Shown piece by piece: positions 47,102-53,561 of a stretch of 53,744 bases of DNA. The translations under genes were made by a program, and so were the position numbers. This DNA is from Fidelibacterota bacterium. GTDB taxonomy: Bacteria; Fidelibacterota; Marinisomatia; SCGC-AAA003-L08; D37C17. The stretch covers positions 1-53,744 of the forward strand of contig PBFG01000023.1 of assembly GCA_002718585.1 (NCBI GenBank). The letters are read 5' to 3'. Numbering within the stretch: position 1 is the stretch's first letter; the number at the start of each line of letters is the position of its first letter. Under the pieces are notes generated by a model. That model saw nothing but the letters and a program-made list of their open reading frames with translations. It was not told where the DNA came from and did no database searches.

Positions 47102-49111
<2,010 letters not shown>

Positions 49112-49114
49112 TTA

Positions 49115-50626
49115 TTATGTAGATAAAATATTTTTATCAATAGAACCTGTTAAACTAAAGAAGTCTTTACTAGAAAAATTAAATGATTTATGCTGATAAT
49201 CACCATTTTCATTTACAGAATAATTATCAATAAAATATGATTTTCTATCAATAATTTGCTCTAAAGATTTTAATAGAAAATCAATATCATCAATTGTGTT
49301 GTATAATCCAAAGCTAGCTCTAACCATACCCATCCATGGTTCTACCTTCCATGATAAATGGTCATCAAGGCAATCTAATTGTTCTAATTCCTCTGAATGT
49401 GTCATATGAAGCATTTTTTCAACATAAGGATGAGCACAAAAACATTCATTTCTTACAGCAATATTAAAATAATCATTTAGTATTGCTGCAACCAGTCCAT
49501 GATCCAAACCTAAAATATTGAATGAAATAGTACCTGCTCTTTTGGAATCATCATCAACCGAATCACCATAAATGAAAATATCTTTAAATTCCTTCATTTT
49601 TTCTATGGCATAATTAGTAAGCTGCAAATCTTTTTTTAATATGTTATCCATACCTATACTATCTAAAACATGAATCGCACAACCTAAAGTAATTGCACCC
49701 AGAATATTAGGTGTTCCTGCTTCTTCTCTATTAGGAAATTGTTTAGACACAAAATAATTTTCAGGGAATACTTTATCAACCATTCCACCTCCAACTTCTT
49801 CTGGTTCAATAGCCGACATAAATGATTTTCTTGCTATGACAACTCCTGGAGAACCGGGTGCATATGTTTTATGTCCAGAAAATAATAGAGCATCAATCTC
49901 TAAATCTTTATCATCAAAACCACTCATATAAATAGGAACATGTGCAGCCATTTGTGCAGCATCTACTATAATGTATGCACCATATTTATGAGCCAATTTA
50001 GCAATTTTATTTATTGGATTAATGATACCAGTTACATTACTTAAACCAGTAATTGAGACATAATTAATTCTATCATGAAATTGAATTAAATATTTTTCAA
50101 AAATCTCCATATCAATACCACCCATATTAGTGTTATTTTTGTTTATAGGAATGTGCATAACCTTGCCACCATGCTTTCTGTGTGGCAAATCATTTGAATG
50201 ATGCTCCATAATTGAAACAATCACCATATCTCTCTCAGGCCTAATACGATTTAAAGTTTTTGCCATGCGATTCATACCTGCTGTAACACCACTTCCCATA
50301 AAAAAACATGTAAATTCATTTGGATCGGCATGAACAAAATCAAGAATTCGATTATGAATCCATTGATAAGTTTTAGTAGAAATTTTGGCACTAAAATGTA
50401 ATAGTGAGTGTGTATTTGAATAATGTTTTAAAAAATCATTTGATGATCTATGTGCTACTCCCATCATAAGAGAAGATGCTGTAGTATCTAAATAAATTCT
50501 TCTAGATTTATTACCATCAACAGTCTCGTATTCTGTATCTAAACCAATAAAATCATGTCTAATTTTCGCTAATAAATCTTGACCTTTAATTGACATAGTT
50601 TCCTTAGTTAAAAGAGGTAATTTCAT
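49115..50626 (-). CDS. Long class-V PLP enzyme, cysteine-desulfurase-like, substrate unknown
   Basis: A 503-residue aminotransferase class V protein. Fold markers are 'YLDTTASS', 'GSGVTAGMNRM', 'MEHHSNDLPHR', 'VDAAQMAAHV' (Asp222, Gln225) and the PLP lysine Lys253 in 'FSGHKTYAPG'. The C-terminal half has 'RNECFCAHPYV' (Cys394, Cys396) at the place where group II cysteine desulfurases carry the catalytic Cys loop. It is about 100 residues longer than SufS, with insertions around 230-240, 350-365 and a C-terminal tail. A true SufS is present in this window, so a different sulfur or amino-acid substrate is possible. It lies between pabC and ligA with nine-base gaps on both sides. Confidence 0.78.
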   Translation of the reverse strand: MKLPLLTKETMSIKGQDLLAKIRHDFIGLDTEYETVDGNKSRRIYLDTTASSLMMGVAHRSSNDFLKHYSNTHSLLHFSAKISTKTYQWIHNRILDFVHADPNEFTCFFMGSGVTAGMNRMAKTLNRIRPERDMVIVSIMEHHSNDLPHRKHGGKVMHIPINKNNTNMGGIDMEIFEKYLIQFHDRINYVSITGLSNVTGIINPINKIAKLAHKYGAYIIVDAAQMAAHVPIYMSGFDDKDLEIDALLFSGHKTYAPGSPGVVIARKSFMSAIEPEEVGGGMVDKVFPENYFVSKQFPNREEAGTPNILGAITLGCAIHVLDSIGMDNILKKDLQLTNYAIEKMKEFKDIFIYGDSVDDDSKRAGTISFNILGLDHGLVAAILNDYFNIAVRNECFCAHPYVEKMLHMTHSEELEQLDCLDDHLSWKVEPWMGMVRASFGLYNTIDDIDFLLKSLEQIIDRKSYFIDNYSVNENGDYQHKSFNFSSKDFFSLTGSIDKNILST

Positions 50627-50635
50627 ACAAATAAA

Positions 50636-51451
50636 TTAATTATTTTTAATTCTATTAAATAGTTCTTTTTTAATTCTTTTAGAATAATAATAGTCAGATT
50701 TCCAATTATCCCAGTAACATTCAACAAGACCAATTCCTGTTGAAGAGATAAATGCTTCATCCATTAGTTTAGCTTCATTTAATGGTATTTTGCGTTCATT
50801 TACTTCTAGCTTTAAATCTCTAGCAATATTTATGATTAAACCCCTCATTATACCTGCTAAAATTCCTAAATCTAATGATGGAGTATAAAGGACTTTATTT
50901 TTAATAAAAAATATATTTCTCATTGCACATTCAGTGACTATCTTATCTTGATTAAAAAAAACTGATTCAAATACATTCATTGATTCACAATATTCTCTTG
51001 CCATTATATTTCCCATATAATTAATTGATTTGATGGCAGGATTATAACGTATGATAGGAAATTCTTTTTCATCTAAATAAAAAACTTTTACTGGTATCTT
51101 AGGTATTTCATAAAATGGTTTTATGATTACAAAAATTGAAGAATTAATTTTTTTCAGATTATTTTCATTGCCTTTGGTTATGATTAATTTAAGTAAACCA
51201 GATTCTAAATTGTTAATGTTAATAACTTTGTTTAAAATTGATAAGATTTGATTCTTGCTCTTATTAATTTTAATTTTTGAAATTTTTAATCCATTATATA
51301 ATCTATCAATATGATCGGTATATGAAAATATTTTTTTTTTATCAAATCTCATCGTTTCAAATATTCCATATCCATAAGAAAAACCCATATCGTGAATTGA
51401 TATTTTTGCATCGTTTTCTTGTACATATTTACCATTTATATAATATTTCAT
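50636..51451 (-). CDS. pabC: Aminodeoxychorismate lyase-like class IV PLP enzyme
   Basis: A fold-type IV PLP enzyme. Markers are 'ISIHDMGFSYGYGIFETMR', the PLP lysine Lys141 in 'NPAIKSINYMGNI', 'ECAMRNIFFI' and 'SSTGIGLVECYWD'. The family includes PabC, branched-chain aminotransferase and D-amino-acid aminotransferase. Its place two bases after pabB makes 4-amino-4-deoxychorismate lyase, which yields p-aminobenzoate and pyruvate for folate synthesis, the best call. 271 residues is right for PabC and short for IlvE. Confidence 0.82.
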   Translation of the reverse strand: MKYYINGKYVQENDAKISIHDMGFSYGYGIFETMRFDKKKIFSYTDHIDRLYNGLKISKIKINKSKNQILSILNKVININNLESGLLKLIITKGNENNLKKINSSIFVIIKPFYEIPKIPVKVFYLDEKEFPIIRYNPAIKSINYMGNIMAREYCESMNVFESVFFNQDKIVTECAMRNIFFIKNKVLYTPSLDLGILAGIMRGLIINIARDLKLEVNERKIPLNEAKLMDEAFISSTGIGLVECYWDNWKSDYYYSKRIKKELFNRIKNN

Positions 51452-51453
51452 AT

Positions 51454-52656
51454 CTATTTTATAAATTGATCTAAAATATTACTTTTCAGACGTGCCTCAT
51501 TTAATTCTTTTTCTTCTTCAGAATCCCAAACAATTCCACCACCTACACAATATTTTGCAATTTGGTCTTTTATCAACATAGTTCTGATAGCAATATTAAA
51601 TTTTAAATCATTGTTTGAATCAATATATCCAATCGTACCAGTATATATTTCTCTATCATAGTTTTCTAACAAATCAATAATTTTCATTGAACTTTCTTTG
51701 GGCGCTCCGGTAATGGATCCTCCTGGACATAAAGCTTTAATTATATCGGTAAAACTAACCTCATTTTTAAGATTGCCATAAATACAGCTAACCATTTGAT
51801 TAATAGTTGTAAATGATTGAACAGAGAATATATCCTTAGTTTTAACAGATCCGAACTCACATATTTTACCTAAATCGTTTCGAAGCAAATCAACGATCAT
51901 AATATGTTCCGCTCTATCTTTGGGACTTTGCATTAACTTATTTTTTAATTTATCATTTTCTTGTTTACTTTTACCTTTATTAATTGTGCCCTTCATAGGA
52001 TATGTAAAAATTTTACTTTCTTCTGTATGAAAAAAAGATTCTGGAGAAAACGACAAAATATCATAATCTTTAATCTTTAAAAAATATCCATATTGGGGTT
52101 TTGCGATTTGTCTCATTAACAGATATATATCTATTGAATTGAAGTCAATTTTATATTTTTGTTCCATAGTATAATTAATTTGATATGAATTGCCTTGAAA
52201 AAGCTCTTTTTTTATTTTACTAATAATCTTGGAATAATTTGATAAAGAATCTATATCTTTAATTTTAGATAAAAATTTAAAGCTGACTTCTTTAGATATA
52301 TTTGATTGAATTGAATATGGTTTAATCATACTTGGCTTAGCAAACCAAAAAAAGGGGAAATTAGATTTTAATTTTTTAAATGGAATATGAGGATAAATTA
52401 TATTTTTAATATCATAACTCATAAATCCTATTGTTTTGATATTATCAATATCTTTAGACCATTTATTTATAAGCTTGTCAAGTAAATCAAATGAATTGCA
52501 TCTAACTTTTTGATGATTATGATATATACTATCATTTATCTGATAAACAACTTCATCAAAACCCCAAATAGCATATCCAACACTTTCAGAATGATTATCA
52601 ATTAAGGCATCAGGTTCACCAAATTCATTAATTAAATCAAATAAACTATTTTTCAT
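51454..52656 (-). CDS. pabB: Aminodeoxychorismate synthase component I
   Basis: A chorismate-using enzyme of the TrpE/PabB family. 'GNSYQINYTM', 'SFSPESFF', 'HIMIVDLLRNDLGKIC', 'GGSITGAPK' and 'GGGIVWDSEEEKELNE' are present. The discriminating position in 'YPMKGTINKG' is Lys222, the residue that marks PabB; anthranilate synthase has Ala there. It aminates chorismate to 4-amino-4-deoxychorismate. The glutamine amidotransferase partner PabA is not in the window. At 400 residues it lacks much of the usual N-terminal domain length (E. coli 453). It overlaps the upstream unknown gene by four bases (ATGA). Confidence 0.91.
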   Translation of the reverse strand: MKNSLFDLINEFGEPDALIDNHSESVGYAIWGFDEVVYQINDSIYHNHQKVRCNSFDLLDKLINKWSKDIDNIKTIGFMSYDIKNIIYPHIPFKKLKSNFPFFWFAKPSMIKPYSIQSNISKEVSFKFLSKIKDIDSLSNYSKIISKIKKELFQGNSYQINYTMEQKYKIDFNSIDIYLLMRQIAKPQYGYFLKIKDYDILSFSPESFFHTEESKIFTYPMKGTINKGKSKQENDKLKNKLMQSPKDRAEHIMIVDLLRNDLGKICEFGSVKTKDIFSVQSFTTINQMVSCIYGNLKNEVSFTDIIKALCPGGSITGAPKESSMKIIDLLENYDREIYTGTIGYIDSNNDLKFNIAIRTMLIKDQIAKYCVGGGIVWDSEEEKELNEARLKSNILDQFIK

Positions 52657-53561
52657 TTAATCTTCTCAAATACTGTATACTTTATAGTTTTAGGAGTGGT
52701 TATTGCATACGAAAAGATTTTCTTTTCACGGATAAATTTTGAAATTCCAATATTTTGGACTTTCGATACAGGAATGGTAATTTTTTTCCCCTTAATTTTC
52801 TTACTTATTAAGGGTAGTATAAAAGTACCCCATTGTAAATGATATGCAAATAATTCCATTAAATTTAATATAATATCCTCATCCCAATCAGGATTAAATT
52901 TTGACTCTCTAGATTGTAAACCTAGGTATTTACTTTTTAGTTTACCAAATCCCGATATTGCTCGCAGATTAATTAAATCAGAATAAAATATATGATCTAC
53001 TTCTTGTTCATATTCTCTTGAATCAATATTTTTAAATAACTCTTGCCAATTGTAATCTGAAAAAATATGGAGCCAATTATTGAAATTTTTTGAATATTTT
53101 TGAAATTTTAACCACATCGAATCACTATGTAATATTAAAAATTTTGAATAATTAGTATTGGGTATTTTAACATTATACAGCCATATTAAAAAAGCCAAAG
53201 TAGATAGCGGATATTTTTGATTAAAATTATTATTCGATAAATTCATTAAAATATTTGGATTACAAGAATTTCTAAATCCTCTTGGCATAGAATCTCCAAG
53301 CTTAATAATATGGCCACCTAAAGTTCTGCCTAGTGTAGGAATTATATCTAAATCAACCCATATTAAATCTTTTTTATTTTTGACTCCTGATTCTGAAATC
53401 CATATTGTTTGCATATTGTAATAACCAACCAATTCCCAATTGAGAAAGTGTGATAAAAAAGATGCGCAAATTAAACCATCGTAGTTTGCAGAAATTACAA
53501 ATTGTCTATTTTTATCCTTCAACCATTTGAATTTTTGAAAAATTTTTTTTCTGTTAAGCAT
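52653..53561 (-). CDS. Unrecognised 302-residue protein heading the pab operon
   Basis: I do not recognise this family. The protein is Trp/Tyr-rich and cytoplasmic by appearance, with no signal peptide or membrane segment. The N-terminal part 'VISANYDGLICASFL' followed by 'DLIWVDLDI' has a faint likeness to DHH-type phosphoesterase motifs (an N-D-G and a D-x-D after a strand), and 'LGGHIIKLGD' follows. That likeness is too weak to name a function. It overlaps pabB by four bases (ATGA), so it is translationally coupled to p-aminobenzoate synthesis and is the first gene of a run ending with ligA. Base use looks like that of its neighbours. Confidence 0.7.
   Translation of the reverse strand: MLNRKKIFQKFKWLKDKNRQFVISANYDGLICASFLSHFLNWELVGYYNMQTIWISESGVKNKKDLIWVDLDIIPTLGRTLGGHIIKLGDSMPRGFRNSCNPNILMNLSNNNFNQKYPLSTLAFLIWLYNVKIPNTNYSKFLILHSDSMWLKFQKYSKNFNNWLHIFSDYNWQELFKNIDSREYEQEVDHIFYSDLINLRAISGFGKLKSKYLGLQSRESKFNPDWDEDIILNLMELFAYHLQWGTFILPLISKKIKGKKITIPVSKVQNIGISKFIREKKIFSYAITTPKTIKYTVFEKIK

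Follow-up and report, generated by a model that had tools for sequence, protein, structure and literature searches.

Metal binding in the DHH superfamily is achieved by residues of motif I, the aspartate of motif II, the first histidine of motif III, and the aspartate of motif IV. In archaea, inactivated RecJ homologues serve as structural parts of the replication machinery, as stated in the available part of the respective article (PMC3307487). With regard to restriction enzymes, DHH does not occur as a word in the available part of a 2014 review on type II enzymes (PMC4081073), and among the papers listed by the literature searches, none joins a DHH protein with restriction-modification in its title or abstract start.

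Here, an unnamed 302-aa gene product encoded next to pabB in a member of the phylum Marinimicrobia (SAR406) is described and labelled famX. The window, i.e., the whole stretch of DNA that was analysed, comprises 53,744 nucleotides; the assignment to the phylum follows from four named relatives in the genome scan, all of which are Candidatus Neomarinimicrobiota. We consider the chances about even that famX, with its predicted DHH fold, once partnered a DNA methyltransferase and was domesticated as a probable pseudoenzyme.

The famX Gene and Its Run of Genes

The gene heads a run on one strand in the order famX, pabB, pabC, class V aminotransferase, and ligA (Table 1), since its upstream neighbour in the genome lies on the opposite strand (locus L059). 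This divergent gene (L059:9654-10598, outside the window) matches a deoxyribonuclease I model weakly (NF011716, E 7e-5) and falls well short of the cut-off. The class V aminotransferase of the run reaches 251 bits with the SufS model (cut-off 475 bits), followed by an encapsulin-cargo cysteine desulfurase as runner-up. The original prediction of a 302-residue gene sharing an ATGA with pabB and preceding pabC, a PLP enzyme, and ligA describes the arrangement exactly.

Table 1. Features of the famX locus in the window and residues of the predicted site.
Feature	Position	Strand	Basis or remark
famX, predicted DHH fold, heads the run	52653..53561	-	302 codons, ATG start
ATGA overlap, famX stop/pabB start	52653..52656	-	4 bases in common
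pabB, aminodeoxychorismate synthase component I	51454..52656	-	302 bits, under the 328-bit cut-off of TIGR00553
pabC-like class IV aminotransferase/aminodeoxychorismate lyase	50636..51451	-	under every NCBIfam cut-off listed
Class V aminotransferase (PF00266), PLP enzyme, SufS-like	49115..50626	-	under the SufS cut-off
ligA, NAD-dependent DNA ligase	47102..49105	-	follows the class V aminotransferase
Motif-I-like SANYDG, residues 24-29	53475..53492	-	family alignment
Motif-II-like WVDL, residues 68-71, contains D70	53349..53360	-	D70 in 29/29 clade members
Motif-III-like GGH, residues 82-84	53310..53318	-	family alignment
NPN, residues 101-103	53253..53261	-	place and wording as NPN after RecJ motif III
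Motif-IV-like LHSD, residues 144-147, contains D147	53121..53132	-	family alignment
NPDWD, residues 223-227	52881..52895	-	NPDW in the order and f21, absent in f24/f27/f29

Shuffling of the famX bases (2000 shuffles) yielded a longest open run of 107 codons vs 302 in the real sequence. Compared with a 94%-identical relative (L021), famX has a dN/dS of 0.109, close to that of ligA (0.108), while pabB, pabC, and the PLP enzyme reach 0.170, 0.239, and 0.040, respectively. famX is a real gene under strong purifying selection. The description as Trp/Tyr-rich was fair in that both residues account for 7.9% of the protein (10 W, 14 Y) vs 3.1-7.0% in the four downstream genes; the enrichment is only mild, however.

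Sequence Searches and Family Extent

The window protein retrieved nothing from Pfam up to E 10 and nothing from NCBIfam up to E 1. Among 31 famX members searched against Pfam, no DHH family was matched, and the single match elsewhere was at chance level (E 0.19). PHROG matches at E 0.012-0.35 and one PADLOC match at E 0.025 were rejected as noise. Likewise, a sequence search of the PDB gave nothing (best E 0.39), and none of the restriction nuclease models matched famX. The earlier statement that no family can be named thus holds for Pfam, NCBIfam, PHROGs, and PADLOC.

Searching with the single sequence detected famX in 40 of 60 genomes, all inside the window's order. With a profile, it was found in all but one of the 41 genomes of this order (40 of 41), and the genome without it is only 58% complete. 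Across the phylum, 54 of 245 genomes have it, where the 14 additional genomes belong to the families f21, f24, f27, and f29. As far as these searches reach, the famX family is one that spans the window's order plus patches of the phylum. One genome of f4 (G039) carries two famX copies (L034 and L036), each adjoining a methyltransferase of the type c4 described below, with the second c4 match being partial. A remote relative is located on the Alkaliphilus plasmid pB6464, adjoining dnaE, and three further ones on viral contigs (L110:5935-6765, L112:5971-6819, and L113:4318-5136). We take these contigs to be phages of Bacillus-like hosts, in which the relatives lie near a presumable capsid gene. 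All four relatives match the profile A4 at E 3e-18 or better (calculated for a nominal million sequences). Among the viral contigs, profile A4 led to one relative, which in turn led to the other two, and neither profile A1 nor the Alkaliphilus protein retrieved any there. A tblastn search of 50,697 phage records with four queries resulted in zero matches up to E 1.

Seven members with unknown residues (L006, L010, L014, L015, L026, L027, and L030) were omitted from the A1 alignment, whereas A4 consists of 30 chosen rows. Neither A1 and A4 nor the tree includes the three partial genes L031, L035, and L060. The tree comprises 47 of the 55 Marinimicrobia genes, with L006, L010, L014, L025, and L026 being omitted as well. 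The residue counts given below refer to all 55 Marinimicrobia genes and the Alkaliphilus relative. A Fisher value was disregarded, since the genes share a common descent.

Predicted Fold

AlphaFold2 produced confident models for the window protein (31-row alignment, pLDDT 93.0, pTM 0.92) and for a distant GHH-type member (L080, pLDDT 95.1). For the window model, the top Foldseek matches in the PDB were Cdc45 and RecJ (E 0.016-0.019), closely trailed by non-DHH folds such as glutamate dehydrogenase and oleate hydratase (E near 0.1), and the top match among viral models was a phage RecJ (E 2.6e-3); none of the three Foldseek searches gave a match at E 0.001 or better. Structural alignment by VIA-align, which draws its lists from Foldseek's own candidates, ranked Cdc45 (5dgo) best of the 50 entries listed for the window model, with Z 7.1 and an rmsd of 4.8 over 203 residues. 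This list has Cdc45 and RecJ at its upper end and NrnA and GdpP further below. For the L080 model, the best two matches were replisome chains (Z 8.1), which we take to be Cdc45, and the named Cdc45 5dgo followed with Z 7.8; values of 7-8 are middling according to the tool's note. All 50 PDB entries listed per model belong to the DHH superfamily, by title or by our own reading. The latter concerns replisome chains, assumed to be Cdc45 on account of their lengths, and 6mtz, which carries no family name and which we count as a member; entries titled 'DNA replication protein' (5ghr-type) were assumed to be archaeal RecJ. Structures of nanoRNase, GdpP, and PAP phosphatase appear among the matches listed for the two models.

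DHH and DHHA1 sequence profiles gave no significant famX match, either in the Pfam search of the 31 members or with hhalign. The alignment of famX to seven Marinimicrobia RecJ proteins (E 0.15) paired the two motifs I and the two NPN with each other, as expected, whereas that to NrnA (E 0.097) had an unexpected register; both were insignificant, and the control of RecJ against NrnA gave E 2.5e-5. Since both structure match lists are uniform and the motif order agrees, the models support an assignment of the famX family to the DHH superfamily with a RecJ/Cdc45-type fold. The distant DHH-like relationship suggested originally is thereby supported by the PDB matches of two confident models and the matching order of motifs.

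Residues of the Predicted Active Site

Residues were assigned to motifs I-IV by means of the family alignment, the motif order, and the DHH ligands named above. The aligned positions are the D-x-D of motif I (residues 26 and 28), D70, the tripeptide 82-84, NPN 101-103, and D147. Motif I takes GNDLDS-like forms in f24/f27/f29 and reads HNDIDG in the Alkaliphilus relative; the position of its histidine is occupied by G in f24/f27/f29 and by S in most of the order, with His retained in the Alkaliphilus relative. A motif III reading D-H-H was found neither in the window protein (GGH) nor in those members that retain all site residues (GHH). The three phage relatives show DNH at this place and keep the Asp residues.

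The full D/D/D/GHH/D set is present in 19 of the 26 genes outside the window's clade, i.e., in all 13 members of f24/f27/f29, the f21 member, and 5 of 12 f4 genes, and in none of the 29 genes inside the clade. The other seven f4 genes have decayed to varied degrees, with D28 alone left in L042, yet they kept the c4 methyltransferase. Within the window's clade, the first histidine of motif III is absent throughout (25 G and 4 S). D70 is conserved in 29/29, D147 in 28/28, D28 in 26/28, and H84 in 24/28 readable genes. At residue 26, D occurs in 21 of 28 genes and N or S in the remaining 7, and all four members of genus g7 have GSQ as motif III. The window protein itself departs from the full set at N26 and G83. 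Altogether, the site occurs in the states GHH, GHG, GGH, GSQ, and motif lost. Some metal binding may remain in the clade via D70, D147, and usually H84. The originally proposed phosphoesterase is not supported as an active enzyme in the case of the window protein, given the complete loss of the first motif III histidine in its clade and the asparagine at residue 26.

Neighbouring DNA Methyltransferases

In 25 of the 26 Marinimicrobia loci outside the window's clade, famX adjoins a same-strand DNA methyltransferase, the lone exception being L085, where the contig ends. Two types of these enzymes, c2 and c4, occur in three gene orders, and both belong to the PF01555 superfamily. Type c2 features a DPPY or DPPF motif (PF01555 E 3.9e-43 in L080) and matches a PADLOC type II methyltransferase over its full length in L078 (E 2e-142); in f29 it is located upstream of famX, while the f24 and f27 copies are found downstream. 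Type c4 has an SPPY motif (PF01555 E 3.8e-13 in L037) and is the upstream neighbour of famX, no more than about 20 bases away, in f4 and f21. The famX-methyltransferase pair holds one genomic position in several f29 genomes.

No such methyltransferase adjoins famX in the 29 genes of the window's clade, and in the genome of the window, PF01555 yields nothing above the cut-off. A weak broken match on the window's own contig (G000:C25:97305-97640, 19 bits vs a cut-off of 26.7, 3 stops) was dismissed as noise. At E 1e-20, c4 was found in none of the f1, f2, and f3 genomes, and a weak partial match occurred in G027 of f5. With the same threshold, c2 was restricted within the order to two g17 genomes, accompanied by a weaker match with a stop in G020 of f1. 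Moreover, c2 occurs in six genomes that have no famX (G082, G194, G196-G198, and G217) and therefore can be an orphan which need not have famX. Family f25 harbours a c2-type methyltransferase in loci L089, L090, and L095 that are devoid of famX, where it looks like an orphan methyltransferase. In L089 it stands beside a FliK-like gene (PF02120), and open reading frames of similar length are found there in L090 and L095.

Among the Marinimicrobia genes with the intact residue set, 18 of 19 stand beside a methyltransferase and one is at a contig edge. The rule that an intact site occurs only with a methyltransferase holds in Marinimicrobia but not in the plasmid and phage relatives, which keep conserved site residues: no PF01555 match was detected on the whole 436 kb Alkaliphilus plasmid or on the three phage contigs, which are possibly fragments. 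In a maximum-likelihood tree of 47 genes, the sampled ones lacking a methyltransferase (21 of 29) form one clade with a support of 100/99. In the present sampling, the loss of c4, the loss of the first histidine, and the arrival of the window-type pabB fall on one and the same branch, so that their coincidence counts as a single event.

Link With pabB, pabC, and ligA

Immediately downstream of famX, pabB or pabC follows in 39 of 40 examined loci of the order, mostly at a distance of -29 to +10 bases; the exception is L036, the second famX copy of G039. A window-type pabB (E below 1e-86) adjoins famX in all 25 genomes having it, which all belong to the window's clade, and in G031 a fragment of it, truncated where the contig ends, lies next to famX. 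Nevertheless, pabB is not a constant companion of famX. Two genomes of one genus (G029 and G033) have famX-pabC with no window-type pabB and carry more distant pabB/trpE-like genes elsewhere, and in the 11 f4 genomes none was found at E below 1e-86 (best 1e-52, G028). Accordingly, the older arrangement in the order seems to be methyltransferase-famX-pabC. The fetched stretches of f21, f24, f27, and f29 contain no match to the window's pab genes. Conservation of the neighbourhood is confirmed for the pabB/pabC link within the order but not beyond it. In our reading, the linkage reflects shared expression rather than shared chemistry.

A function in DNA repair together with ligA, as the original prediction offered, gains no specific support, with ligA being near famX in f1, f2, and f5 loci and absent from the stretches fetched for f3 and f4. 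The other proposal, a folate or pterin enzyme, fares no better, as a full-strength window-type pabB is restricted to one clade and missing beside the famX of G029 and G033, and the constant neighbour outside this clade is a DNA methyltransferase.

Proposed History and Alternative Explanations

The ancestor of famX would have bound metal by its D-x-D, D, GHH, and D residues, acted on DNA, and partnered a methyltransferase, most simply as a restriction-type nuclease. Taking it for a restriction nuclease is a bold step. Such an activity would explain why the intact set is not seen apart from a methyltransferase in Marinimicrobia and why the methyltransferase is able to outlive the famX site. The methyltransferase type (c2 or c4) would have been exchanged at least once. 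Along the branch that leads to the window's clade, the methyltransferase was presumably lost and the site decayed; a restriction-type nuclease could outlast the loss of its methyltransferase only by losing its activity. Afterwards, famX would have been maintained as a protein that lacks catalytic activity and probably binds nucleic acids or nucleotides, a retention that may be likened to that of Cdc45 and the inactivated archaeal RecJ homologues, and it would now be translated together with pabB and pabC. The complete reading, in which GHH-type members are DHH-fold restriction nucleases and the window's lineage lost the methyltransferase, was disarmed and domesticated, and passed on a vertically inherited pseudoenzyme across most of the order as a bacterial parallel to Cdc45, is put forward tentatively, and we rather doubt that it is correct in all parts. 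Its restriction part is weakened by the plasmid and phage relatives, which keep their site residues on contigs where PF01555 matches nothing, by the fixed position of the f29 pair, unlike that of a mobile restriction system, and by the seven decayed f4 genes that retain c4.

The site decay in 7 of 12 genes of f4, a family whose c4 maintains a mean column identity of 68% over ten rows, as well as the constant pairing with methyltransferases of two types are compatible with an ancestral famX that served the DNA methyltransferase as an accessory or targeting subunit instead of being a nuclease. We regard this as rather unlikely, since c2 exists apart from famX in several genomes and the site residues conserved in all f24/f27/f29 members are not required of such a subunit. 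It is similarly improbable that famX of the window is still an enzyme, namely a DHH-type phosphodiesterase with the altered metal site D28, D70, H84, and D147 that acts on an oligonucleotide, pAp, or a signal dinucleotide. The high conservation of these four residues, the purifying selection, and the nanoRNase, GdpP, and PAP phosphatase among the structure matches listed argue for a remaining activity, and jumbo-phage DHH phosphodiesterases were proposed, in the available part of the article, to counter host nucleotide signals (PMC7824862). The lack of the first motif III histidine throughout the clade, the N or S at residue 26 in seven genes, the GSQ of genus g7, and a separate NrnA-sized DHH protein in the same genome point in the opposite direction.

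A folate/pterin enzyme or a partner of PabB/PabC is suggested by the adjacency of the pab genes throughout the order. Because the window-type pabB is confined to the window's clade and not obligatory even there, we consider this very improbable; f4 genomes have no strong match, the families outside the order show no pab match in the fetched stretches, and the fold matches listed include no folate enzyme. Still less credible is a role as a RecJ stand-in in DNA repair, although the predicted fold is RecJ-like and the window's genus has apparently lost RecJ. Among the 42 genomes searched (the 41 of the order plus one), no RecJ match was found in G000, G001, and four g7 genomes, and G002 shows a mere trace at its NrnA-sized DHH gene. 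Nonetheless, RecJ exceeds the cut-off in 28 of the 42, and famX is present in every one of these, which is why we set this replacement so low. In addition, the first motif III histidine is missing in the window's clade irrespective of the presence of RecJ.

To return to the preferred reading of a former methyltransferase partner, an order-wide gene of ocean bacteria would offer a case in which the death and reuse of an enzyme can be tested, for which intact relatives and the intermediate site states listed above are all available. If the methyltransferase partner is indeed a DHH-fold nuclease, restriction enzymes would gain a further fold.

Comparison With Known Systems

Similar to type II restriction-modification pairs, diverse famX genes are located beside a methyltransferase of the PF01555 kind, with the type being exchanged between c2 and c4. 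Unlike these pairs, famX matches no restriction nuclease model, and its position in f29 is fixed in several genomes. With NrnA, GdpP, and PAP phosphatase, i.e., the DHH-DHHA1 phosphodiesterases, famX would share the superfamily according to the models (Z about 4 to 6.6); in contrast to them, the Marinimicrobia members lost the motif I histidine, and the window site is degraded. RecJ and Cdc45 differ from famX, which features no significant sequence match to them, reads G where DHH has its D, comprises only about 300 aa, and neighbours DNA methyltransferases or pab genes. Nevertheless, most of the protein resembles RecJ, archaeal RecJ-GAN, and Cdc45 in its predicted fold (Z 7-8), and motifs I-IV, with the NPN after motif III, follow one another as in RecJ. 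Finally, in the loss of its site famX is like Cdc45 and the inactivated archaeal RecJ homologues, as far as these are described in the available part of the article (PMC3307487).
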